DNA from: Thermoplasmata archaeon
GTDB lineage: Archaea > Thermoplasmatota > Thermoplasmata > Lutacidiplasmatales > UBA184
Direction of reading: 5' to 3'
Assembly: GCA_021844945.1 (NCBI GenBank)
Contig: JAKBSJ010000001.1
Coordinates: 248,001 to 312,000, forward strand
Length of the DNA: 64,000 bases
Positions 31,111 to 47,308 of the stretch are shown here, piece by piece. The translations under genes and the position numbers were made by a program. Position 1 is the stretch's first letter. Each line of letters opens with the position of its first letter. The notes beneath the pieces are model-generated. The model ran no database searches, was not told where the DNA came from, and saw only the letters and a list, made by a program, of their open reading frames with translations.

Positions 31111-31947
31111 ATGACCATCGTCGCCCATCTTCCGCAACGTGCGCTCACCCTCACTGAGGAGGAGTCGGCGGCGCCGCCCGCGATGGAGCTGACCGGCCGC
31201 CGTCGTGCCTCGCCCGAGGAGCGCGCGCTCTCGGAGACGATCTTTGCGGAGTTCCATGCCGATCCGCGCTACCACGAGTTCGTCCTTGGCTGCCTCAACT
31301 GCGGGGAGTGTACGACCGGATGTCCAGCGGCCCGATTCTACGACTTCTCCCCCCGCGAGATGCTCCAGATCGCAGAGACCGGCGACGCGACGACCCTCTG
31401 GGACGCCCTCCAAGAGAAGATCTGGGCATGCTGCCAGTGTTACACCTGCAACATGCGCTGCCGCTTTGGCAACGACATCGCCGGGATCATCAGCGTCATG
31501 CGCGAGCTCTCGGTCTCCCACGGGGTTGCCTCGACGCGCAAGACCCTCGCGCCCTTTGGGCGATCGCTCACGCTGTTGATGACGGTCGGGACCCAGGTCT
31601 CGTCCGATATGATCCAGCCGGATTTCTTCCGGGACTGGGGGCCGTTCGCAACGGGCTCCGACCGGGCTTGGGGCGTCGGTGCCGACATCATGCGCCGTGC
31701 GATCCCCTCGGACGTCCTGCAGACGACCCGATCGTCCTGGGAGGTCTCGGTACAGACGTCACTCGAGCTGTTCCGAATCTACGAGGAGACCGGCGTCCTC
31801 GACATGCTCCGGGGCCTCGATCCCGACCTTACGGAGATGCTGATCGACATCATCGAGGAGCGACGCGAGGAGTTCGAAGAGGCCCGAGAACGGTTCCGGA
31901 CAGAGCTCGAAGGCATGAGCGGCCCGGTGGCCACGTTCCGGGGATAG
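31111..31947 (+). CDS. shdrC1: sHdrC1, iron-sulfur subunit of the sulfur-oxidising Hdr-like complex
   Basis: A 278-residue HdrC-type ferredoxin subunit. Two [4Fe-4S] motifs are clear: CLNCGECTTGCP (about 61-72) and CCQCYTCNMRC (about 111-121). It should pass electrons between the sHdrA flavin and the sHdrB CCG sites of the complex that oxidises LbpA-bound sulfur to sulfite. ATG at 31111 is preferred to an in-frame GTG 18 codons earlier, because a TATA-like box lies within that interval. The gene opens the canonical C1-B1-A-hyp-C2-B2 order; the next gene begins 10 bp later. Confidence 0.92.
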   Translation: MTIVAHLPQRALTLTEEESAAPPAMELTGRRRASPEERALSETIFAEFHADPRYHEFVLGCLNCGECTTGCPAARFYDFSPREMLQIAETGDATTLWDALQEKIWACCQCYTCNMRCRFGNDIAGIISVMRELSVSHGVASTRKTLAPFGRSLTLLMTVGTQVSSDMIQPDFFRDWGPFATGSDRAWGVGADIMRRAIPSDVLQTTRSSWEVSVQTSLELFRIYEETGVLDMLRGLDPDLTEMLIDIIEERREEFEEARERFRTELEGMSGPVATFRG

Positions 31948-31957
31948 GGGACTGTCC

Positions 31958-33244
31958 ATGTTGAGCGCGAACGAAATCCGCAAGGTCGTCCAAGAGAGGA
32001 ACCAGCACCAGAAGGGCACCGGGAAGAAGGTGGTCGACGTCCGCGAGGAGATGGAGCGCCTGGAGGCCGCCGGCGAGATCGTCATCCACCGGATCCGTCC
32101 GGAGAATCGGCCCGTCGAGGTATCCACATTATTCGGATGGAAGAAACGGATCCCTACCGACCGACTCTGGCATCACAAGTCCTGCGGACAGTGCGGCAAC
32201 ATCCCTGGCTACCCATCCTCTCTGCTATGGCTGATGAACGAGACCGGCCGCACGTACCTCAACGAGCCGCACCAGACTTCCTGCACCGCGTGGAACTACC
32301 ACGGGACGGCCACTTCGAACCCGGTCGCTCTGGCCGCCGTAGCCGCCCGAAACTTCCACCGCGCCTTCGAAACGGGTCACTTTCCTCTCATCCACTGCGG
32401 GACCAGCTACGGGGACTACAAGGAGATGCGTAAACTCCTCGTCGAGAACGCGACGGTTCGCGCGAAGGTCCGCGACGTCTTAGGGAAAATGGGCCGCGAG
32501 CTTGTGCTCCCGGAAGAGATCGTCCACTACTCTGAGTGGGTTCACGTCATGGCGCCCGAGATCTTGGCCCGTCAAAAGCACAGGGTCGAGGGAGTCGTGG
32601 CGACTGTACACGAACCCTGCCACTACTACAAGATGGTGCCCGAGGACGCCGTCTACGATGAGAGTATCTATGCCGGGCAGCGGCCGGCCGTCCCCTCGGG
32701 AATACTTATGGCGCTCGGGGCCAAGGTCGCCGATTACTCGACGTGGTATGACTGCTGCGGGTTTGGTTTCCGTCACATCCTGAGCGAGCGCGAGTTCAGC
32801 CGGTCGTTCGCGAACCTACGGAAGATCCGACCGATGGTCGAAGAGGCGCACGCGGATGTCGCGATCACGAGCGACACGGGTTGCGTGACCACGCTCGACA
32901 AGAGCCAATGGATCGGGAAGGCTCACGGGCTCCCGTACATGCTCCCCGTACTCTCCGACGTACAGTTCGCCGCGCTCACGATGGGAGCGCATCCGTACAA
33001 GATCGCCCAGGTCCACTGGCATGCGGCCTCGGCGGAGGCGTTGATGACGAAGATGGGTATCGATTGGAAGACGGCGAAGGCCGAGTTCCGGGAGTATCTT
33101 CAGGCGCTCAAGAACGGCCAGGCGCCCGAACTGCTCCACCCTGCCCACGGGGAGATCGAGACGTTCTTCGCGATCAACAAGGGCCAAGTCCTTCCGGACG
33201 AGGCTCCGGCTGCCCCCGCCGGCGCGGGGGGGCGTTCTCGGTGA
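31958..33244 (+). CDS. shdrB1: sHdrB1, CCG-domain subunit
   Basis: A 428-residue HdrB-type subunit. Cys motifs lie in HHKSCGQCGNIPG, HEPCHYYKM and WYDCCGFGFRH, with TSDTGCVTT completing a CCG-type set, as in proteins carrying the non-cubane cluster that cleaves heterodisulfides in methanogen HdrB. In the sulfur-oxidising version it is a proposed site of sulfur-substrate oxidation. The length near 430 and the charged N-terminal region fit sHdrB1 rather than the shorter methanogen HdrB. Its stop overlaps the sHdrA start (GTGA). Confidence 0.92.
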   Translation: MLSANEIRKVVQERNQHQKGTGKKVVDVREEMERLEAAGEIVIHRIRPENRPVEVSTLFGWKKRIPTDRLWHHKSCGQCGNIPGYPSSLLWLMNETGRTYLNEPHQTSCTAWNYHGTATSNPVALAAVAARNFHRAFETGHFPLIHCGTSYGDYKEMRKLLVENATVRAKVRDVLGKMGRELVLPEEIVHYSEWVHVMAPEILARQKHRVEGVVATVHEPCHYYKMVPEDAVYDESIYAGQRPAVPSGILMALGAKVADYSTWYDCCGFGFRHILSEREFSRSFANLRKIRPMVEEAHADVAITSDTGCVTTLDKSQWIGKAHGLPYMLPVLSDVQFAALTMGAHPYKIAQVHWHAASAEALMTKMGIDWKTAKAEFREYLQALKNGQAPELLHPAHGEIETFFAINKGQVLPDEAPAAPAGAGGRSR

Positions 33245-34278
33245 ATCCGATCCTCGTGCTCGGAGCCGGTCCGGCCGGCTTGAGCGCGGCGGCGGAGATC
33301 GCCGAGCTCGGTGCGCCGACGATCTTGGTCGAGCGGGAGGCCTACCTCGGAGGCAATCCGAAGCGCTGGCACTACTCGCTCCTTGCTCCGGACCTACGCC
33401 CGTCGGACGAGATTCTCGGGCCGTTGATCGCAAAGGTCGAGGGAAATCCGAGGGTCCAGCTCCATCGATCGACGACCGTTACGAAAGCGGAGCGCCTTCC
33501 GAAAGGGTTCCGCATCACGCTGAAAACCGGCGACGCGCTCGAGACCCAGGAGGTCAGCGCCGTGGTCCTCGCGACCGGCTTCGACCATTTCGATTCGCGA
33601 CGCAAGTTCGAGTACGGATACGGTCGCTACCCGGACGTTCTGGATTTCAAGGAGCTCGAGGGGATGATCCATGACGACCGGGTGCTCCGTCCGTCCGACG
33701 GTAAACCGCCCCGACGAATTGCGTGGATCCTCTGCGTGGGGTCCCGGGATCTCCAAGTCGGGAACCCTTGGTGCTGCCGAATGGGGTGCGCGGTGAGCAT
33801 CAAGCAGGCGGTCGAGATCCGGCAGAAGCATCCCGATATCGACGCCTACGTCTACTACATGGACATTCGGACCTACGGCCTGTGGGAAGACCTCTACTGG
33901 AAGTCGATGCAAGAGTACGGGGTCAAGTTCATCCGGGGACGCATTGGTCAGGTGACGCTCGCCGAGGGAGGCTCCCAACTGCTCGCGACCGGAGAGGATA
34001 CGATCCTCCGCCGCCCGACCGAGGTTCCGTTCGATATGATCGTCCTCGCGAGCGGCATGGAGCCCGGCACCGGGACCCAAGAGGCGGCCGCCCTCTTCGG
34101 AGTCCCCGTCGGCCCCGAAGGATTCCTCACCCCGAATCTCTCGGACATGAACCCTGTCGACTCCGGGCTGCCCGGCGTGTTCCTCGCGGGCGCGGCGACC
34201 GGGCCGAAGGCGATCCCTGACTCCGTGACCGAGGGAATGGGCGCGGCCCTCCGCGCATACCAATATGCTCGCAACTGA
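33241..34278 (+). CDS. shdrA: sHdrA, FAD-binding core subunit
   Basis: A 345-residue flavoprotein. The FAD dinucleotide fold is VLGAGPAGLSAAAEIAE at the N-terminus, and the Cys set CVGSRDLQVGNPWCCRMGC (about 166-184) should bind a [4Fe-4S] cluster. It is much shorter than methanogen HdrA and lacks its extra ferredoxin domains, as sHdrA proteins do. It is the electron hub of the complex. GTG start overlaps shdrB1; the 3' end overlaps the hyp gene by 14 bases, showing tight coupling. Confidence 0.93.
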   Translation: MNPILVLGAGPAGLSAAAEIAELGAPTILVEREAYLGGNPKRWHYSLLAPDLRPSDEILGPLIAKVEGNPRVQLHRSTTVTKAERLPKGFRITLKTGDALETQEVSAVVLATGFDHFDSRRKFEYGYGRYPDVLDFKELEGMIHDDRVLRPSDGKPPRRIAWILCVGSRDLQVGNPWCCRMGCAVSIKQAVEIRQKHPDIDAYVYYMDIRTYGLWEDLYWKSMQEYGVKFIRGRIGQVTLAEGGSQLLATGEDTILRRPTEVPFDMIVLASGMEPGTGTQEAAALFGVPVGPEGFLTPNLSDMNPVDSGLPGVFLAGAATGPKAIPDSVTEGMGAALRAYQYARN

Positions 34279-35002
34279 AACCTCACGGACGAGTCGCCCT
34301 ACTGGCGCGGATCCTAGCCGCGTCGCACAAGAATTCCGGGAACGCGTGCTGCCGTGTGGGGTGGGTGAAGTCAACCGCCTCGAGGCATCGGTCGAGGCGA
34401 AACTGACCGCCGTGCGCGAGCTCGAGCGCATTCCAGCGGACCGATTCCCCGCCGCGTTCCAATCCGTTCTCGGCGGGGTCGTTTCGACCCGCCCGTGGCG
34501 CGCAGACCTCGTCGCGCGGACCGACCCTGCGGCCGTGCGCACCATCCTACGCGACGCGCACGGAGGCCGGTTGGGTCCGTCGGACCTTCCGGCGGTAGCC
34601 CGGCGGTTCGACGGAGCGCCGGCGGACGTGGGGATCGACCTCGCGAGCGAGCTCCTCCACGCAGCCGCCCCCGACCGGATCGCGCTCCTCGCGCGTTGGG
34701 TATGGAACCCGGCGCGGCGGACCGGGATCCTCGCGGCGTTCGGGGGACCCGACCCCGAAAGCTACGCGGCGACCCAAGCCCGTCTCGGCGAGATTCGGCT
34801 CCAGCTCGGCGCGCTCGGCTTCCCCTCGCCAACGTTCGCCGGGGTCGACGTGCTGCTCGCCCTCAGTTACGCCGGTCGCCTGGGGGAGGCGACCGACCGA
34901 AGTTTCCAGGGAGGCGGCATCGAGCGTCTCCTTCCGGGTCCGTTCCCTCTCGCGACGATGCTCCTCGGCGTACGGAGGCGCCCCACCATTGCCGATCGTT
35001 GA
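34265..35002 (+). CDS. sHdr-locus conserved hypothetical protein (Hyp)
   Basis: A 245-residue soluble, Arg/Ala/Leu-rich protein lying exactly where the conserved hyp gene sits in shdrC1B1A-hyp-C2B2 loci of Acidithiobacillus, Hyphomicrobium and Sulfolobales. It has no TM helix and only one Cys (LPCGVGEVN). No catalytic motif is visible. Its conservation in order and its 14-bp overlaps with both neighbours imply a structural or assembly role in the complex (inference). Confidence 0.8.
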   Translation: MLATETSRTSRPTGADPSRVAQEFRERVLPCGVGEVNRLEASVEAKLTAVRELERIPADRFPAAFQSVLGGVVSTRPWRADLVARTDPAAVRTILRDAHGGRLGPSDLPAVARRFDGAPADVGIDLASELLHAAAPDRIALLARWVWNPARRTGILAAFGGPDPESYAATQARLGEIRLQLGALGFPSPTFAGVDVLLALSYAGRLGEATDRSFQGGGIERLLPGPFPLATMLLGVRRRPTIADR

Positions 35003-35720
35003 AAAGTCACTCGTCACCGTCGATCGCTCCGAGCGGCTCGAAATCGAGGGGATCGACGTCTCCGGCGACTGGAACACGTTCCTGCGCTCGCGCGTCCAGA
35101 CGGACCTCGACGTACGGATCGTCGACTGGATTCGAAGCCAGCCTCAGGGCGATACGATCTCGCGCTGCTGGCAATGCGGGACGTGCACGGCCGGCTGTTG
35201 CCTTCACACCGATTACGGGTTAAGCGAGTTCAATCCGCGCTACTTCATCTACCTCGCCCAGGTAGGTTACGAGGAGGAGCTGCGGAAGTACGCTACTACG
35301 ATCTGGCGCTGCGTCTCGTGCAACAAGTGCGTCGAGCGCTGTCCGAAGGGCGTCAAAGTCGAAGAGGTCATCCACACGATCGGAAGCTATCTCGAATTCA
35401 CTGGTGGCGCCCCTGAGAGCCCGGCCGACCGGTTCGACCGGGCCTACACGGAGAACCTGCTTCGCCGGGGGGTCCTCGACGAGGCGAGCCTGTTCCGGAC
35501 CTACGAACGCATGGAAGGGAGGACGATGCCGGCGGGCGAGATGCTCAAAATGGGCTTCCAGCTGTTCCGGAGCGGCCGGCTCCGGACCGGTCCTCTCGCC
35601 CACCGGACCCGCGGATGGCGCCGGTTCGGGAACGTACTGCGTGAGAAGCTGAAGGAGGACGAACGCTGCCGGCGCGCATCGCTGAGCGCGGCGGGAGGAA
35701 CGGGGGGCCACTCTCCGTGA
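34989..35720 (+). CDS. shdrC2: sHdrC2, second iron-sulfur subunit
   Basis: A 243-residue HdrC-type subunit with motifs CWQCGTCTAGCC (about 59-70) and CVSCNKCVERCPKG (about 107-120) for two [4Fe-4S] clusters. It pairs with sHdrB2 as the second C/B module of the symmetric complex. The TTG start at 34989 lies inside the end of the hyp gene; no better start agrees with the family N-terminus. The stop overlaps the shdrB2 GTG (GTGA). Confidence 0.92.
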   Translation: MPIVEKSLVTVDRSERLEIEGIDVSGDWNTFLRSRVQTDLDVRIVDWIRSQPQGDTISRCWQCGTCTAGCCLHTDYGLSEFNPRYFIYLAQVGYEEELRKYATTIWRCVSCNKCVERCPKGVKVEEVIHTIGSYLEFTGGAPESPADRFDRAYTENLLRRGVLDEASLFRTYERMEGRTMPAGEMLKMGFQLFRSGRLRTGPLAHRTRGWRRFGNVLREKLKEDERCRRASLSAAGGTGGHSP

Positions 35721-36652
35721 GCGCCGGCATCTCGCGCGGGCCGACGGACAGCGTTCCGGCGTACTACCCCGGTTGTTCGCTCGACGGGCTCGGGAAGGCC
35801 TACGAGGTCACCGCGCAGCAGGTGCTCCATCGACTCGGCCTTTCGCTCGATCGGATCGTGGACTACAACTGTTGCGGCGCGACGGAGGTCAAGAACCTGA
35901 GCCAGGACGTCTCGGTCGCTCTCCCCGCACGCAACCTCGCGCTCGCCCGGTCGATGGGGCGCCACCAGGTCGTGGCGGCCTGCAACGGTTGCGTCTATTC
36001 GCTCGCGCGGGCCAACGATGCGGTCCGCGAGCCGGCGACCCGGGGCCGCATCAACGCGACCCTGGAGGAAGGAGGTGCTCCCACGTACGACGGCGAAGCG
36101 TCGGTCCAGCACGTGCTCGAATTCATCCACGCCCGGGCCGGACCCGAACGGGTACGGGCGGCCGTGCGACGACCCTTGACCGGCCTCACGGTGGCCCCGT
36201 ACTACGGCTGTCTCTACACACGGCCGAAGCGCTACACCGGAGCCGGCACAACACCGGGCGCCGATGACCCGGAGCATCCGCACTTTCTGGATGAACTGCT
36301 CGAGGCGTGCGGAGCGAAGGTCCTCACCGACTTCTCGGCGAAGACGATCTGCTGCGGCGGCGGTCACGCGCTGAGCGACCTCGACGTTGCGGTCGCGTTT
36401 AGCGCGTCGATCCTCAACGAGGCTCGTCGCGCCGGTGCCGATCTGGTCGCCACCATCTGCCCGCTGGGCCAAATCAACATCGAGAACCACCTGGATCGGA
36501 TCCGTGCCGCGTACGGCGAGGAGGTACTGCGTCCGGTGGTGTACTTCACCCAGCTCATGAGCCTCGCGTTCGGCGCGAGCGTGGCCGAGGCTCGGTTCCG
36601 GGACAATTTCTCACGACCCGACCTCTTCTTGCGCTCGCGGGGTTTTGCCTAG
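35717..36652 (+). CDS. shdrB2: sHdrB2, second CCG-domain subunit
   Basis: A 311-residue HdrB-type protein with two CCG modules: YYPGCSLDG, DYNCCGATEVK and CNGCVYS in the first; VAPYYGCLYTRP, TICCGGGHAL and TICPLGQIN in the second. The variant second module (CPLG in place of CxxC) leaves one ligand position without Cys. It likely forms the second non-cubane cluster site. Length is near that of methanogen HdrB. It is followed 10 bp later by lbpA. Confidence 0.92.
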   Translation: MSAGISRGPTDSVPAYYPGCSLDGLGKAYEVTAQQVLHRLGLSLDRIVDYNCCGATEVKNLSQDVSVALPARNLALARSMGRHQVVAACNGCVYSLARANDAVREPATRGRINATLEEGGAPTYDGEASVQHVLEFIHARAGPERVRAAVRRPLTGLTVAPYYGCLYTRPKRYTGAGTTPGADDPEHPHFLDELLEACGAKVLTDFSAKTICCGGGHALSDLDVAVAFSASILNEARRAGADLVATICPLGQINIENHLDRIRAAYGEEVLRPVVYFTQLMSLAFGASVAEARFRDNFSRPDLFLRSRGFA

Positions 36653-36662
36653 GTGGGGGACG

Positions 36663-37112
36663 ATGGCGATTCTGAACGGCTGCGAATTCCCGGACGACCG
36701 TGCCTACTTCATTGAGCGAACTCAGATGACCTGGGTCAAGGTCGAGGGGGATCGCCTGATGGTCGGCCTCACCGACCCGGCTCAGACCCGGGCGGGCAAG
36801 ATCCTCCACGTTCGCATTAAGGCGGCGGGCACTTCGCGGGAACGCGGCAAGCCGATCGCGACGGTCGAGAGCGGCAAGTGGGCCGGCCCGGTTATGGCGC
36901 CGGTGACGGGCACGGTGATCGCAGCGAACGCGGAGGTCGAGCAGGACCCCGGGCTCCTCAATACCGACCCCTACGGCCGAGGGTGGATCGTGGTGATGAC
37001 CGCGTCCGATCCGAGCGAAGTTGGGTCGCTGTTGCGGGGAGAAGCGGCGCTCGCGCGCTTCAAAGAGATCCTGGAGAAGGACAGCATCCGTTGTATGCGG
37101 TGCCAAACCTGA
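36663..37112 (+). CDS. lbpA: Lipoate-binding protein LbpA1 (GcvH-like)
   Basis: A 149-residue lipoyl-carrier protein of the GcvH fold. The predicted lipoylated Lys is K72 in TVESGKWAGPV, and TDPYGRGWIVVM is the usual second strand after it. In sHdr organisms LbpA carries the sulfur substrate on its lipoyl group to the complex. ATG at 36663 follows AGGTGGGGGA. An unusual feature is the C-terminal CMRCQT, a CxxC pair not needed for lipoyl binding. No glycine-cleavage genes are nearby, which excludes an ordinary GcvH role here. Confidence 0.92.
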   Translation: MAILNGCEFPDDRAYFIERTQMTWVKVEGDRLMVGLTDPAQTRAGKILHVRIKAAGTSRERGKPIATVESGKWAGPVMAPVTGTVIAANAEVEQDPGLLNTDPYGRGWIVVMTASDPSEVGSLLRGEAALARFKEILEKDSIRCMRCQT

Positions 37113-37134: not shown

Positions 37135-37527
37135 ATGAGCGCGAACACTCCGGCGGACCCCGCCGGGAAGAAGATTCTGATGATCATGACGACCGGGCCG
37201 GAGGATCCCGACAAGACGTACGCCCCGTTCTACACCGCGGCGCTCATGGCTGCCATGGAGATCGATACAACGATGTACTTCTTGATGCACGCTCCCGAGC
37301 TCCTTCGCAAGGGAGGGGCCGAGTCCGTCCCTCTCAAGAAGGGCGGGAACCTGAAGATGTTCATCGATATGGCGCGCGAGAACGGCGTCAAGTTCCTGGC
37401 GTGCGCCGAGAGCTGCCGCGACCTCTGCGACATTCCGCCGACCGACCTCATCGAGGGCGTCAAGCTCGTCGGATCGGCGACGCTCGCCGACCTCGCGCTC
37501 GACGCCGACTCGGTCATCTCGTTTTAG
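37135..37527 (+). CDS. DsrE-family sulfurtransferase
   Basis: A 130-residue DsrE/F-like protein. ILMIMTTGPEDPDKTYAPF forms the first strand and loop, and a Cys-rich segment FLACAESCRDLCDIPP (about 86-101) places Cys residues at the usual persulfide-carrying site. It probably hands sulfane sulfur between TusA and the sHdr/LbpA system. A GGAGGAAG ribosome site precedes the ATG at 37135. It sits between lbpA and its ligase, as in several shdr loci. Confidence 0.88.
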   Translation: MSANTPADPAGKKILMIMTTGPEDPDKTYAPFYTAALMAAMEIDTTMYFLMHAPELLRKGGAESVPLKKGGNLKMFIDMARENGVKFLACAESCRDLCDIPPTDLIEGVKLVGSATLADLALDADSVISF

Positions 37528-37548: not shown

Positions 37549-38685
37549 GTGGGCGCGGCGTGGCGCTGGCTCGACCTCGGAGCGGTCGACGGCGCCACGA
37601 TGATCAACGTGTTCGTCGCACTCGCCCGGCCCGTTGCCGCCGGCCGTTCGCCCCCTACGGCTCTCGTCCTCTACCCGGAACGTCCGTTCGCGAACGTCGG
37701 CTACCATCAGGAGGCCGAGCGGGAGCTCGACCTCGCCTACTGCCGCGCCCAGGGGATCCCGGTCGTCCGTCGGGCCGTCGGCGGGGGCGCGATTCTCGAC
37801 GGCCCGTGGGAGCTCGACTACATGCTCGTGCTCCCGCCCGGCGCTCCGGGCACCGACGCTGGCGTTGCCGCCTTCTACGACCGGCACCTCGCGCCCGTCG
37901 CGGCGGCGCTGCGTAGGCTCGGTGTCGCCGCGGAGCGAGCCGGCATCAACGACCTCTCCTCCCGCGGCCGGAAGCTGAGCGCGAACGGGGCCATGCAACT
38001 GCACGGCTCGTGGATTCTGGTGGGGGACCTCTTGCTCGACCTCGACGTCCTTGCGATGAGCCGGGTCCTACGGGTCCCGGACGAGAAGTTCCGCGGGAAG
38101 CTCGCGAGCGGGATGTCCGAGTGGCTCACGTCGATCCGCGCCGAGACCGGTCGCCTTCCCGAGCGGGAGCTCGTCGTTCGAACCCTGAGGGAGGAGTTCG
38201 CTCGATCGCTGGGAGTCTCGTGGGTACCCGGGGCGCTGAGCGCGGAGGAAGCGGCGTCCCTGGCCGAGCTCAAGATCTCACGAACCCAGGACGACTGGAC
38301 GTACCGGAAGGATCGCTCCCACCCGGGCCTGTCGGGCGCCCCATACGAGGGACGGGCCCTCAAGATCGCGCACGACACCTTCCTCGCCCGGTGCGATCGC
38401 AAGGCCGGAAAGCTCGTTCGGATCACGCTCTTGCACGGCGGCGGCCGGGTGAAGGAGGTCGAGATCTCCGGCGACTTCTTCACCATGCCGTTTGACGCGC
38501 CGCTCGCGGACCTCGAACGGGGCCTCGCGGGCCAGATCCTCGATGAGCGTTCGCTCCAGGGATCTATCGCGGACTGGCTCCGCCAGCACCACGTCGAGCT
38601 GGTCGGTGCGACGGCCGCCGACCTCGCGGCTTCGATCGTGGCCGCCGCAGAGCTCGCGCCCACCACCGCTAGTCGAACCCCGTGA
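37549..38685 (+). CDS. Lipoate-protein ligase, sHdr-associated (sLpl-type), copy 1
   Basis: A 378-residue ligase of the LplA/BPL fold, expected to load lipoate or octanoate on LbpA1. The adenylate-binding motif is PVVRRAVGGGAILDG (71-85) and the catalytic Lys is K142 in GRKLSANGAM. Residues about 265-370 form a C-terminal accessory domain like that of LplA/sLpl(AB), fused rather than separate. GTG at 37549 follows a GGGGGAA stretch. The 3' end overlaps the second, convergent ligase by 17 bases. Confidence 0.88.
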   Translation: MGAAWRWLDLGAVDGATMINVFVALARPVAAGRSPPTALVLYPERPFANVGYHQEAERELDLAYCRAQGIPVVRRAVGGGAILDGPWELDYMLVLPPGAPGTDAGVAAFYDRHLAPVAAALRRLGVAAERAGINDLSSRGRKLSANGAMQLHGSWILVGDLLLDLDVLAMSRVLRVPDEKFRGKLASGMSEWLTSIRAETGRLPERELVVRTLREEFARSLGVSWVPGALSAEEAASLAELKISRTQDDWTYRKDRSHPGLSGAPYEGRALKIAHDTFLARCDRKAGKLVRITLLHGGGRVKEVEISGDFFTMPFDAPLADLERGLAGQILDERSLQGSIADWLRQHHVELVGATAADLAASIVAAAELAPTTASRTP

Positions 38686-39706
38686 TCGAGCGCACGGCCG
38701 CCGCGAGCTCCTCAAACTCGGAAGACTCGCGGGGAAGCGGCCGAGCGACCGCTTCGAGCGACGGGCCGAGCGTGTAGCCGGCGCCTACCTCGGCGCCGTT
38801 CACGATCGCGATGCGGCGCTCCCCCGACCCCGGCCCTGCAAGAACGAGGATCCCGTGCGGGCCGGCCACCCGCAGTCGCCGCTCCACAGAGCTCGCCGTT
38901 CGCGGTAGCGGGGGGAGCTCGCGCCATGTCGTCTCTTGGTGGCGGACCACCGTTTCCCGACGGAAGTGCGCCTCTTCGGCCTCGGACGGATCGGCGGAGC
39001 GCGTCCGAAAGAGGCCGGCCTCGCCGAACGCCTTCGTGACCGCGTCGGCGAACGCCGTCCATTCGGGGAGATGCCCGGTCTCGTCGACCCAGGAGGTGAC
39101 CCATCGCGCGAGCTCGGCACGCACGATCGGACGGACTCCGGGGTGCGGGAGTCGTAATAGATCCGCCATGCTCTCCCGGTCCGCACGGCCCAGGATCCCT
39201 CCCACCAGGATGTGGGCGCCGTCCCAGTCGCCGCCCGCGTTGCCCGAGATCTTGCGCTCTCCTACGACCAGATCGCTCGGCGGACGCACCGTCAGAGTCA
39301 GCCCTTGCTCCGTGGCCGCCTCGGCGACGGGACGCAAGAAGCGAGCAAGGTCCCCGGGCCCTCCTGCCCCTTCGTCGCGGTACACGAGCTGGTAGAACCA
39401 CTGGTCCGAGTCGAGCCAGGTCGTCCCCCCTCCCTCGACCCGTCGGATCACCGGGATCCGGCGACGGGCAACGAACTGCGGATCGACCTCCTCGGCGAAG
39501 GACTGATGGAACCCCAGGGAGACGTACGGGGAATCCGGCCGGGCGAACAGCAGGGTGTTGGGCACCTCGCCGGCGCCGACGAACGGAGCAACGCTCTCGA
39601 CGAACGTCTGGGCTCTCAGCGGGGAGCAACGACCGAGGTCGATCCTCCGCCAGACGGGAAGCTCGGGACGGAAGGGCGACGGTCCGTCCGTGACCTGCCC
39701 GCTCAC
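38669..39706 (-). CDS. Lipoate-protein ligase-like, copy 2
   Basis: A 345-residue second LplA-like protein. The binding motif reads PVIRRVEGGGTTWLD and the catalytic Lys lies in GERKISGNAGG; both are present but differ from copy 1. A C-terminal domain of about 90 residues follows. It starts with GTG overlapping the stop of the second LbpA (GTGA), so carrier and ligase are coupled. It is the last gene of the long minus-strand sulfur operon and meets copy 1 tail to tail. It most likely serves LbpA2 specifically (inference). Confidence 0.85.
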   Translation of the reverse strand: MSGQVTDGPSPFRPELPVWRRIDLGRCSPLRAQTFVESVAPFVGAGEVPNTLLFARPDSPYVSLGFHQSFAEEVDPQFVARRRIPVIRRVEGGGTTWLDSDQWFYQLVYRDEGAGGPGDLARFLRPVAEAATEQGLTLTVRPPSDLVVGERKISGNAGGDWDGAHILVGGILGRADRESMADLLRLPHPGVRPIVRAELARWVTSWVDETGHLPEWTAFADAVTKAFGEAGLFRTRSADPSEAEEAHFRRETVVRHQETTWRELPPLPRTASSVERRLRVAGPHGILVLAGPGSGERRIAIVNGAEVGAGYTLGPSLEAVARPLPRESSEFEELAAAVRSITGFD

Positions 39707-40089
39707 CCGGTGCCCTCGGTCCACGCTTCGAGCAGTCCCGATGCGCGCGGTCGCATTCGGTAGAGCCAGCCCGTGCCGTAGGGGTCGCGGTTGATGGTCC
39801 CCGGATCGGCCTCCACCACCGGGTTGGTCTCCACGACCGTTCCGTCGACCGGGAGCGCCAAGTGACCGACCCACTTCTCCGATTCAATCGAGGCGACGGT
39901 CTCGTCGCGCAGGTACGTGCGGCCGGGCTCGGGTCCCCGGTACTGAGCGAGACGTCCCGCTCGTCGTTGGGCCTCATCGGTGAGCCCGATGACGTACGTT
40001 CCGTCCGGTTCGCGCCGGTACCAAAGGTCCGGGCCGATGCGGCACGCAGGACGCGGATCGCCCAATGCCGGAAATGAGGCGGGGGCCAT
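39703..40089 (-). CDS. Lipoate-binding protein LbpA2 (GcvH-like)
   Basis: A 128-residue GcvH-fold carrier. The predicted lipoylated Lys is K72 in SIESEKWVGHLA, the same position as in LbpA1, and NRDPYGTGWLYRM matches the LbpA strand. It lacks the C-terminal CxxC of LbpA1. ATG at 40089 is chosen; the frame is open far upstream but inside the DUF1641 gene. It lies in one operon with SQR-like, TusA and DsrE genes, so it is probably a second sulfur carrier rather than a glycine-cleavage H protein. Confidence 0.87.
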   Translation of the reverse strand: MAPASFPALGDPRPACRIGPDLWYRREPDGTYVIGLTDEAQRRAGRLAQYRGPEPGRTYLRDETVASIESEKWVGHLALPVDGTVVETNPVVEADPGTINRDPYGTGWLYRMRPRASGLLEAWTEGTG

Positions 40090-40093
40090 CACC

Positions 40094-40792
40094 CTAGCGC
40101 GGCGGAGCGGAGCCCCACGACCGGCCCAGCTGCTTGAGGAGGAGCAGGACCGCCTGAAGTCCGCGCTGCGTCTCCGGGTCCCGCAGGGCACGACCGAGGG
40201 CGAACACCCCCGAGACGTTCGGGATCTCCGCGAGCGCCTTCTCCCGCGCGGCCGGGTCGCCGAGCCCTGAGGTGGACTCGGCCAGAGCTCCGAGGACCGG
40301 GCCGGCGCGCACGGCGGCGCGGACCAAGGGCTCGATCTCCTCCTTGGGAGGCAGCGACTCGACGAACTGTATCCAGCCAACCGCGGAAGCGCCGGCATGG
40401 GCGACCATCTGATCGGTGGTCGCCTGGGCGACGCCGACCGCGCCTTCGGCGAGAGTGACGATCGTGTCCAGCGCTCCCGTCTCCTTCCATTCGGCGAGCC
40501 GGTCGATGAGGAACAGCACCGCGTCCCGCCGCCGCTCGTCCTGGGAGATCCAGTCGAGCAGAGAGAAGGCTCCGACGAGGGTCGTGCCCGCGGACTCCAG
40601 CATACGGTCCGTGACCGCGTCCGAAATCCCGACGGCGCCTTCGGCGAGGGAAAAGAGCCGCTCGAGCGTTCCGTCCGACTGCCAGCGCGCGAGGCGCTCT
40701 CCGAGGGTCTGGAGTGCGGCGAGCGAGTCGGCGGTAGAGGGGGTCGGGGACACGGCCGCCGAAGGCGGCGCGGAGGGGGGGGACGCCGGCAT
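40094..40792 (-). CDS. DUF1641 protein
   Basis: A 232-residue helical protein. The C-terminal LGRALRDPETQRGLQAVLLLLKQLG is the DUF1641 hallmark (given here as its parts ALRDPETQRGL and LLLLKQLG). The middle contains two repeats with the shared words TLAEGAVGVAQATTDQM and SLAEGAVGISDAVTDRM. DUF1641 proteins often accompany SQR-like flavoproteins and are proposed to be accessory or membrane-associated partners; the role is not established. It follows the SQR-like gene by 10 bp. Confidence 0.82.
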   Translation of the reverse strand: MPASPPSAPPSAAVSPTPSTADSLAALQTLGERLARWQSDGTLERLFSLAEGAVGISDAVTDRMLESAGTTLVGAFSLLDWISQDERRRDAVLFLIDRLAEWKETGALDTIVTLAEGAVGVAQATTDQMVAHAGASAVGWIQFVESLPPKEEIEPLVRAAVRAGPVLGALAESTSGLGDPAAREKALAEIPNVSGVFALGRALRDPETQRGLQAVLLLLKQLGRSWGSAPPR

Positions 40793-40802
40793 GATGTTCG
40801 TC

Positions 40803-41951
40803 CTAGAACAGCGCCCGGGCCGTCAGGTCCCAGTACGTGCGGTTGTAGATCACTTTGTTCCAGTAGTGCGCGAACGAGGGGGTCGGAGGGTGCGGCGGGT
40901 GGAGATAGTCGAACTTGATGTACGTCGCCTGAGCGAGCCCGGTCAGTATCCAGCAATAGACCCGCCCCTCGTAGCGCGACGTCGGGGCTTCGCCCCGGGC
41001 GAGCGCCGCCACGTTCTGCGTCACGGTCTCGGCCTCGTAGTCCGCCGTCGAGCCTGCCTTCGAGATCGGGATGTTGGTCGCGTCCCCGAGGACGAAGATG
41101 TTCTGCTTGCCTTCGGCCCGCAGCAGGTAGCGGTCGGTCGGGATCCAGTTGCCCTTATCGCCGAGCCCCGACGCCCCGACGAAGTCGGCCCCGCGGTGCG
41201 GGGGTATGGCGATGAGCAGATCGTAGGGTAGCACGTCCCCCTCGACGCCCTTGATCGTCTTCCCGGCAGGGTCGATCTTGTCGACGTTGAACGGGACGTG
41301 GATGCGGATGCCGCGCTCGCTCATCAGGCGCTGCATCGGCTGCGCGACCGTGTCGATCCCAAAGACCTTCGGAATGGGGTAGGTGTAGTGGATCTCGGTC
41401 TTGTCCCGAATCCCCTGCGTTCGAAGGTAGTCGTCGAGCAAGAACGTGACCTCCAGCGGAGCGACCGGGCACTTGTAGGGCATACCCGCAACCGAGACGA
41501 CGATCTTCCCTCCCGTGAAGCCGTGGAGCGCCGTGCGCAGCTTCTGAGCGTTCTCGAGATCGTAGAAGCTGTGCGCTCCCTCGACGAGACCCGGGATGAG
41601 CTCGGGATGGATGACCGAGCCGCTCGCGATCACGAGGATGTCGTACCCGACCTCCGTACCGCCCTTGAGCAGGATCTTGTTCGCGGGGGAGTCGATCTTC
41701 TCGACCTCGCCCTTGATCAGCTGAATAGATCGGTGGAGGAGCCGGGCCTCCTCGCGTAGGGTCTCTTCCGGCCGCATCTTGTCGAAGACGACCATGAGGT
41801 AGCCCGGCTGATACGCGTGAATACCCTCCCGGTCGATCAGCGCGAGCTGGACCTGGCCCGCTGCGACCTCGCCCTCGAGCGCCTTGCGAATTCGGTTCGC
41901 CACCGTAGTTCCACCAATTCCTCCTCCCAAGATCACCACTCGCTTTGCCAT
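40803..41951 (-). CDS. Sulfide:quinone oxidoreductase-like flavoprotein
   Basis: A 382-residue FAD protein of the SQR/FCC group. The FAD fold is VVILGGGIGGTTVANRI, the second nucleotide motif is IFVLGDATNIPISKAGS, and Cys residues occur in AGMPYKCPVAP (the conserved second SQR Cys) and RVYCWILTG. SQR proper uses three Cys; a counterpart of the first was not found, so polysulfide chemistry may differ. It likely oxidises sulfide or a persulfide at the membrane surface and passes electrons to quinone. The gene pairs with DUF1641 and TusA/DsrE genes. Confidence 0.82.
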   Translation of the reverse strand: MAKRVVILGGGIGGTTVANRIRKALEGEVAAGQVQLALIDREGIHAYQPGYLMVVFDKMRPEETLREEARLLHRSIQLIKGEVEKIDSPANKILLKGGTEVGYDILVIASGSVIHPELIPGLVEGAHSFYDLENAQKLRTALHGFTGGKIVVSVAGMPYKCPVAPLEVTFLLDDYLRTQGIRDKTEIHYTYPIPKVFGIDTVAQPMQRLMSERGIRIHVPFNVDKIDPAGKTIKGVEGDVLPYDLLIAIPPHRGADFVGASGLGDKGNWIPTDRYLLRAEGKQNIFVLGDATNIPISKAGSTADYEAETVTQNVAALARGEAPTSRYEGRVYCWILTGLAQATYIKFDYLHPPHPPTPSFAHYWNKVIYNRTYWDLTARALF

Positions 41952-41968: not shown

Positions 41969-42241
41969 TCACTCATGCGTTTTGCGGACAATGAACCGGT
42001 CGAACCCGGAATCCGGCCGGAGTTCGACCAACTGGTGGCCGGCTTTGTTGAGCCAGATCGGAATGTCCTTTCGGGACCCCTCGTCGCTCGACAGGAGCTC
42101 GAATTCAGTGCCGACGGGTTCCTCTTTGATCACTCGGACGAGCTCCATCAGAGGGCCCGGACACCAACTCCCTCGGGCATCGACCACCATCCGGGGAGGC
42201 GCGCCGGTCGGTGTCGGTCGGGGCTCATCGGGTCCGGTCAT
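41969..42241 (-). CDS. tusA: TusA-family sulfur carrier
   Basis: A 90-residue TusA-like protein. The active Cys is in DARGSWCPGPLMELVR, the standard CPxP motif. TusA proteins carry a persulfide and exchange it with DsrE partners. ATG at 42241 overlaps the TGA of the upstream DsrE gene, so the pair is co-translated. The frame continues upstream without TusA similarity. Confidence 0.9.
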   Translation of the reverse strand: MTGPDEPRPTPTGAPPRMVVDARGSWCPGPLMELVRVIKEEPVGTEFELLSSDEGSRKDIPIWLNKAGHQLVELRPDSGFDRFIVRKTHE

Positions 42242-42669
42242 ATGAAGTAGGTAATTTGTGCGGACCGGGTGGTGTCGATGAAGGTTGCTACCCCGGTGAC
42301 GCTTTCGACCAGAGGGTCGAGCTCCTCCTTCTGGAATCCGAGAATCTCCATCGACTGAGAGCACGCGTAAATGTGAAGGTCGCCGAGCGACTTCGCCATC
42401 TCGAGGATCGCCCTCCAAGAGGGGGCCTTCGGCGCGGTCAACGCCTGCTCCAGGCGCGCGCCGAGCTCGCCATGCCCTGGGCTTACTTCCGGGACCGACG
42501 GCCCCTTACGAAAGGCGCTCAGCCCCCAGTAGCTCGCGAAGACGTCCACGCGGAACCCCATCGCAATCGCCCCGCTCACGAGCGTCGCGAAGGGAAGGAG
42601 CTTGTCGGTGGCGCTTTCCGTGAGGACAATCGCCATCTGATCGGGGGAAGGGGTCGAGGGGGTAGACAT
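42238..42669 (-). CDS. DsrE-family protein (DsrE3-like), copy 2
   Basis: A 143-residue DsrE-superfamily protein. MAIVLTESATDKLLPFATL starts the fold and the Cys lies in LHIYACSQSMEILGF, the CxxSMxxxG pattern of DsrE3-like persulfide carriers. It overlaps the downstream tusA (ATGA), a classic TusA-DsrE pair. It shares the pattern of, but is clearly diverged from, the next upstream DsrE gene. Confidence 0.88.
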   Translation of the reverse strand: MSTPSTPSPDQMAIVLTESATDKLLPFATLVSGAIAMGFRVDVFASYWGLSAFRKGPSVPEVSPGHGELGARLEQALTAPKAPSWRAILEMAKSLGDLHIYACSQSMEILGFQKEELDPLVESVTGVATFIDTTRSAQITYFI

Positions 42670-42692: not shown

Positions 42693-43148
42693 CTAGATGA
42701 AGAGCGTGACCGCGTCGGGCCTCGACGCGAGTTCGAGGTACGTGCTGGCACCGATGACGTCGTCGACCTCGTTCACGAGGCTCTGTTTCGTCATTCCGAA
42801 CATGTCCATGGTCGGGGAGCAAGCATGGATGTGGACACCCGCCTGCTTCGCTTGCTGCATGAATTGCTCGACGGTCGGGAACTTTGCCGCGATCGCCTTC
42901 TGCATCTCGGGAGGGAAGACGTCCATCGACTTCTTTCGTCCCTCCGGGGTCAGGAGTTGCATGCCCCAGAACGTGAAGTACATGTGGGCATCCATCCCGA
43001 GGGCCCGCGCGGTGGTCGCGAGGATCAGGGACGGGTACGCCATGTCCGCCCCTCCCTTCGACACCACGAGGATCAGGGACTTCTTCCCCTCCTGCTTCGC
43101 CCGTTCTACCGTCTCGGTCGCTCGTCCAGCCACTGCTCCCGCCGTCAT
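42693..43148 (-). CDS. DsrE-family protein, copy 3
   Basis: A 151-residue DsrE-superfamily protein. SLILVVSKGGADMAYPSL forms the first strand, and the carrier Cys is in VHIHACSPTMDMFGM, parallel to copy 2. It lies 24 bp before copy 2 on the minus strand. The two copies may form a hetero-oligomer or serve different TusA partners (inference); one TusA gene lies on each side of the pair. Confidence 0.88.
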   Translation of the reverse strand: MTAGAVAGRATETVERAKQEGKKSLILVVSKGGADMAYPSLILATTARALGMDAHMYFTFWGMQLLTPEGRKKSMDVFPPEMQKAIAAKFPTVEQFMQQAKQAGVHIHACSPTMDMFGMTKQSLVNEVDDVIGASTYLELASRPDAVTLFI

Positions 43149-43171: not shown

Positions 43172-43873
43172 CTACTTATGTTCCAGCACGAATCGATACG
43201 TTCCGGAGTCCTCGCTGTGCTCCCGCAGCGGATGGCCCGTGCGCTTCGAGAACGCCTCGAAGTCCGAAGGAGCCGCCGGGTCGTCGGCAAGGATCTCGAG
43301 TCGCTCCCCGGGTTGCAGCGTCTCGATCATCGCGCTCGCCTTGAGGATCGGCATCGGACAGAAAAGGCCCCGCGCATCGAGGAGGGTGTGTTCGTTCTGT
43401 TCGCTCACCGTGCGACTCTCCCGCATGGGGGGAGGCGGCTGGGCTATTTCGGCTTTACGTTTGTCCAATATCAGGTCCTGGTCGGGTGAAGGGGGCCCCC
43501 GGTCCTCGGACGGCTCCGAGAAATTCCATCGTGCGATGATGGCCGCTTTCGGTATCGTCAGGACGTTGCGATACGCGGGGAAGAGGTCGGCTCCGTAGCG
43601 CTGGGCGAGGGGACGGTTCTCCTCCGCGAACGCGATCTCGCCGAGGGCGAGGAACTCATCATCCTCGCGCAGGAGGACCCCGGCCGCGTGGAAGAGCGGT
43701 CCGGCAAGCTTCTCGGGTCGGTCGGGGAACTCGAGCGGGTTCGGATCTCGGTATCGTACGTAGACCACGCGGATCTTCACGGGGGAGCGGGCCGGGGCCC
43801 GGTCCGCCGGGGCAGTAGGATCGCCCGAGTGCATGGGAAGCGGCACAAAGGGTTCCGGACGGTCCTCGTTCAT
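43172..43873 (-). CDS. Unknown domain fused to TusA (or two adjacent genes in one frame)
   Basis: A 233-residue open frame. Residues about 30-118 are an unrecognised compact domain (YVRYRDPNPLEFPDRPEKLA, FLALGEIAFAEENRPLAQRY). A low-complexity linker of about 30 residues follows, then TusA at about 150-233 with its Cys in LDARGLFCPMPILKA. ATG at 43426 could start TusA separately, and the TTGGACAAACGT motif lies 31 nt before it, inside the linker. So this is either a fusion or an upstream gene that reads through. The first ATG overlaps the stop of the TusB-like gene (ATGA). Confidence 0.75.
   Translation of the reverse strand: MNEDRPEPFVPLPMHSGDPTAPADRAPARSPVKIRVVYVRYRDPNPLEFPDRPEKLAGPLFHAAGVLLREDDEFLALGEIAFAEENRPLAQRYGADLFPAYRNVLTIPKAAIIARWNFSEPSEDRGPPSPDQDLILDKRKAEIAQPPPPMRESRTVSEQNEHTLLDARGLFCPMPILKASAMIETLQPGERLEILADDPAAPSDFEAFSKRTGHPLREHSEDSGTYRFVLEHK
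43457..43468 (-). promoter_or_regulatory. Second copy of TTGGACAAACGT, before the TusA part
   Basis: On the minus strand the 12-mer TTGGACAAACGT is identical to that before shdrC1. It lies 31-42 nt upstream of the possible internal tusA ATG at 43426. It is also translated as part of the linker, so it may be coincidence. Confidence 0.3.
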
Positions 43874-44196
43874 GGTAGCTGAATCACCCTCTCCGCGGTC
43901 ATGATCGCTTCTACGAGCTCATCATACGAGACCGTCCGGCCGGGGCGGCCGGTCGAGCGGCGGATCCCTCGCCCGTTCGCGTCGTCTTCGAGGACCCATT
44001 CCTCACCGCTCCGAGCGATCGCGGGGTCGGAGGATTCCGCATCGTAGCTCGCCGTACCGAGCAGGACCGTGACGAGATCGTGGTGGTCTGCCTCGGCGGT
44101 GAGTCGTAGGGAGGCGAGAACCGCTCTCTCTTCCGGCGCGAGCGGACCCTGGCGCACGAGGACCCAAGAATGCGGTCGTCCCCGGGGCGCGGTCAC
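43870..44196 (-). CDS. Small protein in the TusB/DsrH position
   Basis: A 108-residue protein following DsrE- and DsrF-like genes with GTGA overlap, the place of DsrH/TusB in dsrEFH or tusDCB operons. WVLVRQGPLAPEERAVLASL could be the first strand and helix of that fold. It has no Cys, so it cannot carry a persulfide itself, unlike classical DsrH. The C-terminal half is acidic and Arg-rich (GRPGRTVSYDELVEAIM). The TusB assignment is by position and size only. Confidence 0.6.
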   Translation of the reverse strand: MTAPRGRPHSWVLVRQGPLAPEERAVLASLRLTAEADHHDLVTVLLGTASYDAESSDPAIARSGEEWVLEDDANGRGIRRSTGRPGRTVSYDELVEAIMTAERVIQLP

Positions 44197-44555
44197 ATCG
44201 TCACCGTCCTTCCCGCCTCCACGAGCGACCGTGCGGCCTCGTCGTCTTCGACCAGACGTAGCGCAACGCCCTCCGCGAGGTCGTCCCGGGCAATGCCCCG
44301 GTGGTCGAGCGAAGGTGCGTGCACCAGGGCGGGCCGGTCCTCGGACACGATGTCCTGCAGCATCCGCTGCACGGGGGGGCCGAGTCGGTAGCCCGCCTGA
44401 CCGCGAGCAAGCACGCGCACCCCCTCTGCGATGAAGAGAAATCGTACGGGCTGGTCGAGCGCGGCGGCCATACCCGCGACCCGCACCGCCTCGGCGAAAT
44501 GAGTCGTCGTGTACGGCGGCCGCCGGATCCAGAGAAGTATCGGGGCCAGGGTCAC
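44193..44555 (-). CDS. DsrF/TusC-like protein
   Basis: A 120-residue protein of the DsrE/F superfamily. ILLWIRRPPYTTTHFAEAVR resembles the DsrF/TusC N-terminus (basic PPY loop), and RFLFIAEGVRVLARGQAG matches its second strand-loop. There is no Cys, as in many TusC proteins. GTG at 44555 overlaps the stop of the DsrE-like gene, and its own stop overlaps the TusB-position gene, so the three are translationally coupled and probably form one complex. Confidence 0.75.
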   Translation of the reverse strand: MTLAPILLWIRRPPYTTTHFAEAVRVAGMAAALDQPVRFLFIAEGVRVLARGQAGYRLGPPVQRMLQDIVSEDRPALVHAPSLDHRGIARDDLAEGVALRLVEDDEAARSLVEAGRTVTM

Positions 44556-44908
44556 GTTTCCTCCGTGAGCGCGAGGAAGCGGTCCGCCCCGACGAACAGC
44601 TCAACCAAGTCTTCGAGGGTCCCGTTTCGCGCGTTTCCAATCAGCGCCTCGTCTCGCAACCCGCGGAATCGAGCGCACGTACTGCAGTTGACCAGCGAGG
44701 TCGAAGAGGAGAGTTGCGAGAACCGGTGCGCGACCCCCTCGGGATCCGCGAGCGCTAGTGCCTGGCCCGTGCAGTAGACCGCATCCCCGAGAAAGAACAC
44801 GGTCACCCGATGGCCTTGGCGTCCGGCAGCTTCCGCGAGGTTCAGCGCGATCTCGGACATCCGATGCTGGACGGGCGATGCGAAGAGAAGGATCCCCAGG
44901 TGACCCAT
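44552..44908 (-). CDS. DsrE/TusD-like protein
   Basis: A 118-residue protein with the DsrE/TusD pattern: ILLFASPVQHRMSEIALNLA, then VTVFFLGDAVYCTGQAL, then Cys in SLVNCSTCARFRGL (about 75-88). These Cys residues are candidates for persulfide transfer. ATG at 44908 overlaps the preceding stop by one base. It is the first gene of the D-C-B-like trio. Confidence 0.8.
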   Translation of the reverse strand: MGHLGILLFASPVQHRMSEIALNLAEAAGRQGHRVTVFFLGDAVYCTGQALALADPEGVAHRFSQLSSSTSLVNCSTCARFRGLRDEALIGNARNGTLEDLVELFVGADRFLALTEET

Positions 44909-45151: not shown

Positions 45152-46066
45152 TCACGCCTCCGACAAAGGAGTCGCGCGCCCAGAGTCGCCGGCTCGGTCT
45201 CGCGCGGCCCGTACGCGATCAAGCAGCATTCGGATGCGATTCGCGATCAGAGAGGCCTCGGGGGAGCGCATCTCTTCGACTCGACCGGAGTCGGCGAGCG
45301 CCGGAAGCCCCGGTAGGATCGGGATGCTCCCAAGGAAGGGGATTCCCATGCGCGTGGCGAACTCCGGGCCGCGCGAAGGTCCGAACAAATCGATCCGGTC
45401 CCCATGTGGACAGGTGAGATACGCCATGTTCTCGACGAGTCCCAGTATCGGCGCGGAGAACGTTTTGGCCATCGCCGACGCCTTACCGACGACCTCCGCA
45501 GAAAGTTCGGTCGGCGCGGTTACGATGACGACCCCGTCCGGTTCGAAGGACTGGAAGACGGTCATCGGAGCATCGCTCGTTCCCGGCGGGAGATCGACCA
45601 CGAGGTAGTCGAGGTCCGGCCACGCGGTGTCCTTGAAGAGCCCACGAATCGCGCCGTTGATCATCGGCCCGCGCCAGATCAAGGGGATTTGAGTCGACGC
45701 CGTGACCGAAGCCATCGACATGACGTAGACTCCACCTGCCGAGCGCATCGGCTCGATCTTCTTTTCGTCGGGAGTCAGATGGGGGACGCTGGCCACCCCG
45801 AAGACCCGGGCCATCGATGGCCCCGTGATGTCCGCGTCGAGCACGCCCACCGATGCCCCTCCCCTGTGGAACTCCGAGGCGAGCAGGGCCGCTACGAACG
45901 TCTTGCCCACACCACCCTTTCCGGAAAGGACGGCGAGAACCGAACGGATCCGCGAACGGTCGAGCTTACCGATCGAGAACCCTCCGTCGTCTCGCAAGGG
46001 TCGGGGTCTCGTGCCGCCGACCATCGGAAGAGCCACCGGTGTGTCCTCGTCGGGCGGACGTGCCAT
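45152..46066 (-). CDS. Mrp/ApbC/NBP35-type P-loop ATPase
   Basis: A 304-residue deviant-Walker ATPase of the iron-sulfur-cluster carrier family. The P-loop is GKGGVGKT (49-56), with LDADITGPSMARVFG and LVVDLPPGTSDAP as further marks. Family members carry a CxxC near NMxYxxCPxC that bridges a [4Fe-4S] cluster between subunits; here it reads NMAYLTCPHGDRI (C219 only), so the second Cys is missing. It may still load clusters onto sHdr or Apr proteins, or have another role. It is the first gene of the minus-strand operon; GGCTTACC 25-32 nt upstream could be its TATA box. Confidence 0.88.
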   Translation of the reverse strand: MARPPDEDTPVALPMVGGTRPRPLRDDGGFSIGKLDRSRIRSVLAVLSGKGGVGKTFVAALLASEFHRGGASVGVLDADITGPSMARVFGVASVPHLTPDEKKIEPMRSAGGVYVMSMASVTASTQIPLIWRGPMINGAIRGLFKDTAWPDLDYLVVDLPPGTSDAPMTVFQSFEPDGVVIVTAPTELSAEVVGKASAMAKTFSAPILGLVENMAYLTCPHGDRIDLFGPSRGPEFATRMGIPFLGSIPILPGLPALADSGRVEEMRSPEASLIANRIRMLLDRVRAARDRAGDSGRATPLSEA

Positions 46067-46846: not shown

Positions 46847-47293
46847 ATGCCGACCTACGTTCTGACGGACAAGTGCAAGGGATGCATGGAGTGCGTGAAG
46901 ATCTGCCCGAGCGACATCATGCACATCGATGCCGGGCAGGGTCGCGCGTACAACATCGAGCCGTCGATGTGCTGGGAGTGCTACGCGTGCGTCAAGGCGT
47001 GCCCCGAGGCCGCCATCGAAGTCCGGGGATACGCAGATTTCGCTCCGCTCGGTCACTTGGTGATGCCGACCCGAACCACCGATCGCATCGACTGGAAGAT
47101 CCGCATGCGTAGCGGGGAGATCAAGGAGTTCACGTTCCCGATCCGAACGACCCCGTGGGGCTCGATCCGAGCTCCGCAGGATTCCCCCGAGCCCGCGGCG
47201 GAAACGGTTTCGAGCGAGCTGCTCGCGTATGAGCCGGACTACCTGGCGGTGGAGGCCCTTCCGACCCTGCCCAAGAAAGCCGCCGGGAGCTGA
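46847..47293 (+). CDS. aprB: Adenylylsulfate reductase beta subunit
   Basis: A 148-residue iron-sulfur subunit. CKGCMECVKICPSDIM (about 10-25) and CWECYACVKACPEAAI (about 44-59) bind two [4Fe-4S] clusters, and the extended tail (WKIRMRSGEIKEFTFPIR onward) is specific to AprB, wrapping the alpha subunit. With AprA it interconverts sulfite + AMP and APS; with sHdr making sulfite it should run oxidatively. ATG at 46847 follows GAGGAG. It precedes aprA by 15 bp. Confidence 0.94.
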   Translation: MPTYVLTDKCKGCMECVKICPSDIMHIDAGQGRAYNIEPSMCWECYACVKACPEAAIEVRGYADFAPLGHLVMPTRTTDRIDWKIRMRSGEIKEFTFPIRTTPWGSIRAPQDSPEPAAETVSSELLAYEPDYLAVEALPTLPKKAAGS

Positions 47294-47308
47294 CGACCGG
47301 GAGGGAAA

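Follow-up and report, generated by a model that had tools for sequence, protein, structure and literature searches.

A coupled second lipoate carrier and ligase, proposed as an accessory cassette of sHdr sulfur oxidation in a Thermoplasmata archaeon

The sHdr sulfur oxidation island of a Thermoplasmata archaeon encodes, beside the lipoate carrier LbpA1 and its ligase Lpl1, a second carrier and a second ligase, LbpA2 and Lpl2, which are translationally coupled, conserved among relatives and linked to sHdr genes. We consider it on balance probable that this second pair is an accessory carrier and ligase cassette of archaeal sHdr sulfur oxidation, in which the carrier is served mainly by its own ligase and is fed by TusA and DsrE proteins. 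The window analyzed here is a stretch of 64,000 nucleotides on contig C3 of the genome G000 (1.26 Mb, 87% complete), whose closest named relatives are Thermoplasmata archaeon MAGs. The name LbpA2 is used as a number only and implies no orthology to the proteobacterial protein of the same name.

The island consists of two operons that face each other (Table 1). On the plus strand LbpA1, a DsrE protein and Lpl1 come after the sHdr operon, and on the minus strand an operon runs from Mrp through TusD, TusC, TusB, TusA, two DsrE2-like proteins and another TusA to SQR, DUF1641, LbpA2 and Lpl2. Several features of the surroundings are recorded here in their own right. The gene called hyp within the sHdr operon (34265-35002) matched no NCBIfam family. 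The longer TusA-domain protein of the minus-strand operon (233 aa) is a single gene both here and in G040, and corresponds to a gene fusion. AprB and AprA homologues, named from sequence and synteny without a family scan, are encoded after the island, on the plus strand, at 46847-49147, and thus sulfite formed by sHdr could proceed to sulfate via the APS route. In the relative G033 the sHdr operon is adjoined by another AprA/AprB-like pair, a diverged second one with identities of 65% and 48% (L051:16874-19149).

Table 1. Features of the sulfur oxidation island, in positions of the window.
Feature	Position	Strand	Remark
sHdr type I operon C1-B1-A-hyp-C2-B2	31111..36652	+	Order kept in every complete relative
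LbpA1, lipoate-binding protein	36663..37112	+	149 aa; Lys72; Cys7; C-terminal CxxC
DsrE-family sulfurtransferase	37135..37527	+	PF02635; between LbpA1 and Lpl1
Lpl1, sLpl(AB)-type ligase	37549..38685	+	378 aa; complete LplB domain, GDFF present; meets Lpl2 tail to tail
Lpl2, lipoate-protein ligase	38669..39706	-	345 aa; Lys152 kept; SDL for NDL; reduced LplB domain
LbpA2, GcvH-like lipoate-binding protein	39703..40089	-	128 aa; ATG at 40089, stop at 39703; Lys72 (ESEKW); one N-terminal Cys; Pfam GCV_H 3.8e-27
DUF1641 protein	40094..40792	-	Upstream of LbpA2; belongs to movable SQR module
SQR, type III-like sulfide:quinone reductase	40803..41951	-	NF049943 1.9e-105, below cut-off
TusA-like sulfur carrier	41969..42238	-	Match 9.4e-8
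DsrE2-like protein of SQR module	42238..42636	-	
Second DsrE2-like protein	42693..43148	-	Immediately precedes LbpA2 in relatives lacking SQR module at the operon
TusA-domain protein, two genes fused	43172..43873	-	Separate genes in most relatives
TusB-, TusC-, TusD-like (DsrEFH-like) genes	43870..44908	-	
Mrp/ApbC-type ATPase	45152..46066	-	Opens minus-strand operon; named from sequence, without family scan

An initial annotation of this DNA had described LbpA2, with its lysine in ESEKW, as coupled through GTGA to a second LplA-like ligase that ends tail to tail with the first, and each of these features holds. The carrier has its Pfam match (Table 1) and the ligase matches LplA-B_cat (2.8e-23), the GTG start of Lpl2 at 39706 falls inside the stop codon of LbpA2, and the stops of the two ligase genes overlap by 17 bp. 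An overlap of the type xTGA recurs in 16 of the 20 orthologous LbpA2-Lpl2 pairs. The pair has orthologues in 16 of the 78 genus genomes and in four genomes from sister genera within the family; beyond this family, 400 sampled genomes of the class yielded no clear orthologue. These are not chance open reading frames, because the orthologues are spread over these genomes, LbpA2 has a dN/dS of about 0.2 and Lpl2 one of 0.2-0.3 (purifying selection; the G007-G051 value for Lpl2, an artefact of a mismatch between protein and DNA, was left out), and the AlphaFold model of Lpl2 reaches a pLDDT of 90.8.

The two genes also change together. In a set of 15 genomes, to which the sister genera were added and from which YP4 was removed as the same genome as G229, the partial correlation of distances between LbpA2 and Lpl2, with shared species signal removed, is 0.44 (p 0.003). 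It is 0.02 for LbpA2 across the pairs with Lpl1, and 0.03 for LbpA2 with the nearby gene DsrE_c; co-divergence of adjacent genes can arise from linkage alone, though DsrE_c shows no such signal. A comparison of carrier and ligase for co-evolution had been put forward as a check; co-divergence is seen in the second pair, whereas the first pair gives 0.07, with LbpA1 too conserved for a strong test. Mean distances in the same set are 0.86 for LbpA2 and 0.77 for Lpl2 vs. 0.27 for LbpA1 and 0.50 for Lpl1, so the second pair diverges faster, which may mean relaxed constraint. Among about 15 correlations tried, LbpA2 also co-diverges with hyp of the sHdr operon (partial r 0.64, p 0.0005), a lead rather than a proof, by which hyp may be a partner of LbpA2. 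A different kind of evidence comes from G048 and G052 (L041:1100-2600 and L040:10230-11660), where LbpA2-Lpl2 are about 75% identical and the flanking SQR operon about 95%, synonymous divergence is threefold higher in the cassette, and the break lies at the junction of DUF1641 and LbpA2. The cassette was apparently replaced there as a block, likely by recombination, or else the contrast reflects a chimeric contig or an artefact of metagenome assembly. Translational coupling, specific co-divergence and apparent block replacement together point to the second pair being a unit of inheritance.

How exclusive the second ligase is for its carrier is a separate question. Both ligases might modify both carriers, the second pair serving as a backup or dosage copy, and we regard this as unlikely, although part of the evidence leans that way. 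In Thioalkalivibrio a single ligase modifies both LbpA1 and LbpA2 and is active across species (PMC6067878). The relative G032 has both carriers, and Lpl2 is the only ligase of the sulfur type found in it, so that in the absence of Lpl1 it may serve both carriers there. Moreover, the two ligases co-diverge with each other in the set of 15 genomes (0.43, p 0.0005). Against such an overlap, LbpA2 follows Lpl2 and not Lpl1 in those genomes, though in a set of 12 genomes the two values are alike (0.32 with Lpl2, 0.25 with Lpl1); in addition, the coupling of LbpA2 and Lpl2 is conserved and the carriers differ in Cys content. The initial annotation had gone further in the opposite direction and proposed two dedicated circuits. 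Two pairs do exist and the second appears to act as a unit, but strict insulation is doubtful, judging from the gene content of G032 and by analogy with Thioalkalivibrio. As for the supply of lipoate, LipA is encoded in the genome (profile match; L064) and a LipB-like gene, recognized by place and sequence, lies in the pyruvate dehydrogenase operon (L055:8169-8807). LipS1/S2, which are found in 88.6% of sHdr-containing archaea (PMC10332631), were not seen among 11 radical-SAM matches in this 87% complete genome.

The same proposal had divided the circuits by pathway, with LbpA1-Lpl1 for sHdr and LbpA2-Lpl2 for sulfur from the SQR/TusA/DsrE operon. We hold two circuits insulated in this manner to be quite improbable. 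The layout of this genome fits the division, since LbpA2-Lpl2 end the SQR operon, and in G022, where the two halves of the island lie 17 kb apart, the second pair stays with SQR. Of the 18 genus genomes with SQR, Lpl2 or both, 14 have the two together (Fisher p 1e-11), and the co-divergence specific to the pair also agrees with it. Across relatives, however, the division fails. SQR is absent or elsewhere in five relatives that bear LbpA2-Lpl2. Two sister-genus genomes, G135 and G229, have their SQR module (DsrE_b, SQR and DUF1641, with TusA in G135) at another place and without LbpA2 by genome-wide search, and the module of another, G174, is likewise apart from the cassette as far as the contig edge; in all three the cassette comes directly after the Mrp-Tus-DsrE genes, and the argument here is one of unlinking, not of SQR absence. 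G001 and G032 keep the cassette and no SQR orthologue was found in either. Conversely, in G033 the sHdr-LbpA1-DsrE-Lpl1 genes face the SQR operon with nothing between them and the second pair is missing, which indicates that it is dispensable where both sHdr and the SQR operon are present. G047, G004, G052, and G059, whose contigs end at the relevant place, were not counted as absences. The second pair goes with sHdr: in a sample of 61 genomes of the genus sHdrB1 is found in 11 of the 12 genomes that bear Lpl2 vs. 2 of the 49 without it (Fisher p 2e-9), and all four sister-genus genomes with the second pair have sHdr beside it. As sHdr is nearly always present, a role of the pair independent of it cannot be demonstrated. 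Since the cassette follows sHdr and the link with SQR breaks across relatives, the second pair is best seen as an accessory of the sHdr and Tus/DsrE system, not of SQR.

From sequence and model, Lpl2 keeps the LplA fold and catalytic lysine but has a reduced LplB domain. The closest PDB chains to its catalytic domain are 3r07_A and 2art, Lys152 aligns with the catalytic lysine of solved LplA structures, and both RRVxGGG and KxSGNAGG can be recognized as motifs, so that the fold, the RRxxGGG motif and the lysine by which LplA is recognized are all present. The difference lies in the accessory part. The LplB profile NF053749 matches 12 of 12 aligned Lpl1 vs. none of 10 Lpl2 proteins, the GDFF motif is found in 19 of 19 Lpl1 vs. 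none of 17 Lpl2, and in the predicted C-terminal domain four strands are accompanied by one helix in Lpl2 vs. three in Lpl1. In this respect Lpl2 departs from the sLpl(AB) type, to which an LplB accessory domain belongs. The lost LplB features and the Asn-to-Ser change in the NDL motif could mean altered chemistry, and one may ask whether Lpl2 is a transferase similar to LipM or LipL that moves octanoyl or lipoyl groups from another carrier onto LbpA2, all the more as LplB loss is thought to be the route of LipM origin (PMC10332631). We consider this very unlikely. No Cys is invariant across ten aligned Lpl2 proteins, which speaks against a Cys-dependent transferase, the acyl-Cys typical of LipM, LipL, and LipB not being evident; the lysine and both motifs are kept, and a remnant of the C-terminal domain is still there.

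LbpA2 combines the GcvH-like fold and conserved lipoyl lysine that characterize LbpA proteins with a coding position linked to sHdr. The ESxK lysine is aligned in all orthologues of the carriers and those of LbpA1 (ESGKW) and LbpA2 align with each other. The earlier remark that both stand at position 72 is accordingly right as to the residue; that the number is the same is partly fortuitous, as N-terminal length varies among LbpA2 orthologues. The extra CxxC ascribed to LbpA1 is also there, in its C-terminal end IRCMRCQT, and all complete LbpA1 orthologues have Cys7 and the terminal CxxC except that of G032, in which the second Cys is lost. LbpA proteins are defined by a conserved N-terminal Cys together with a conserved C-terminal Cys, and the authors of this definition except some archaeal LbpA. 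Most LbpA2 orthologues have the N-terminal Cys and no conserved C-terminal Cys was found among them; as the published exception leaves membership open, LbpA2 is here called LbpA-like. In the tree it forms its own clade on a long stem, apart from the proteobacterial second carriers (Cao et al., 2018), with weak deep support. That LbpA2 is instead a GcvH serving glycine cleavage, one of the cases named at the outset as refuting, is highly improbable: the genome has GcvP homologues and the best PDB matches of LbpA2 are GcvH proteins, but a better GcvH is encoded on another contig (7.7e-40), and LbpA2 has ESEKW, falls outside the GcvH rows of the tree, sits in a sulfur operon and belongs to genes that track sHdr.

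The two pairs differ in their relationships. In the trees, LbpA1 and Lpl1 group with sHdr proteins from Sulfolobales and from other Thermoplasmata (L097, L098, L094-L096; Lpl1 support 100/99), and in the loci of these organisms that were compared there is one LbpA and one ligase each and no Lpl2. LbpA2 and Lpl2 form one clade each on a long stem (2.34 for Lpl2), and the grouping of Lpl2 with the Bathyarchaeota ligase L163 may be due to long-branch attraction. For an origin by duplication from LbpA1-Lpl1, approximately unbiased tests gave p of 0.37 and 0.56 for LbpA and 0.12 and 0.575 for Lpl. Among known systems, the sHdr pathway of Thioalkalivibrio sp. K90mix and Hyphomicrobium has LbpA1, LbpA2, and one sLpl(AB) (PMC6067878, PMC10332631), and shares with the present island the type I operon C1-B1-A-hyp-C2-B2, LbpA1 followed by DsrE, GcvH-like lipoyl-Lys carriers and a dedicated ligase nearby. 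In contrast, the island described here has two ligases, the second coupled to the second carrier and without LplB features, its LbpA2 has no C-terminal Cys, LipA and not LipS1/S2 was found, and the host is an archaeon. The closest solved fold to the Lpl2 catalytic domain is that of the bipartite LplA/LplB of Thermoplasma acidophilum (3r07, 2art), whereas Lpl2, a single chain, has a C-terminal domain that is shortened and without a sequence match to LplB.

Many sHdr organisms are known to have two LbpA proteins. Carrier pairs with more than one ligase are not unique to this family and recur in Bacteroidota (L110, L138, L139, L150), Actinomycetota (L113, L119), and Bacillota (Alicyclobacillus, L153), in islands with two to three LbpA and at least two LplA-like genes. 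There too the second carrier is near a second ligase, in or beside the sHdr island, but carriers and ligases belong to other clades and lie on the same strand, and no kinship to LbpA2-Lpl2 is implied. Some Proteobacteria have a second, very divergent LplA-like gene further away. Clusters of a ligase, an LbpA-like carrier (EAEK or ESxK) and a second ligase were also seen in several phyla (L185 in G136:C293, L113, L119, L153, L164), possibly a separate carrier-ligase system. What is new in the present case is the coupled second pair arranged tail to tail with the first ligase, the LplB-reduced ligase, the unequal Cys content of the two carriers, and the natural absences.

For the accessory cassette that we favor, the following sequence of events can be suggested. 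Lpl2 would be translated by coupling straight after its carrier and would most likely attach lipoate, or octanoate that is then completed by LipA, to Lys72 of LbpA2. The carrier would thereby become a second lipoyl arm, alongside LbpA1 and Lpl1 as the main carrier and its ligase. It would receive sulfane sulfur or electrons from the TusA/DsrE relay and carry them towards or away from the sHdr complex, and without the C-terminal Cys of LbpA1 it would depend on its lipoyl thiols alone. The pair would be inherited as a unit, not tied to SQR, and absolute specificity of Lpl2 would not be required. A bolder version, possible rather than likely in our judgment, is that one sHdr island houses two distinct lipoyl circuits, a Cys-bearing carrier served by a complete ligase and a Cys-poor carrier served by an LplB-reduced one whose specificity is orthogonal, with the second circuit exchanged between species as a cassette, and that the carriers perform different chemical steps, such as sulfur delivery and electron removal.

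The second pair thus offers a natural handle on why some sulfur oxidisers keep two lipoate carriers. Its LplB-reduced ligase bears on the purpose of the accessory domain, and the natural absences, of the second pair in G033, of Lpl1 in G032 and of SQR in G001 and G032, make the division of labor between the two carriers directly testable.
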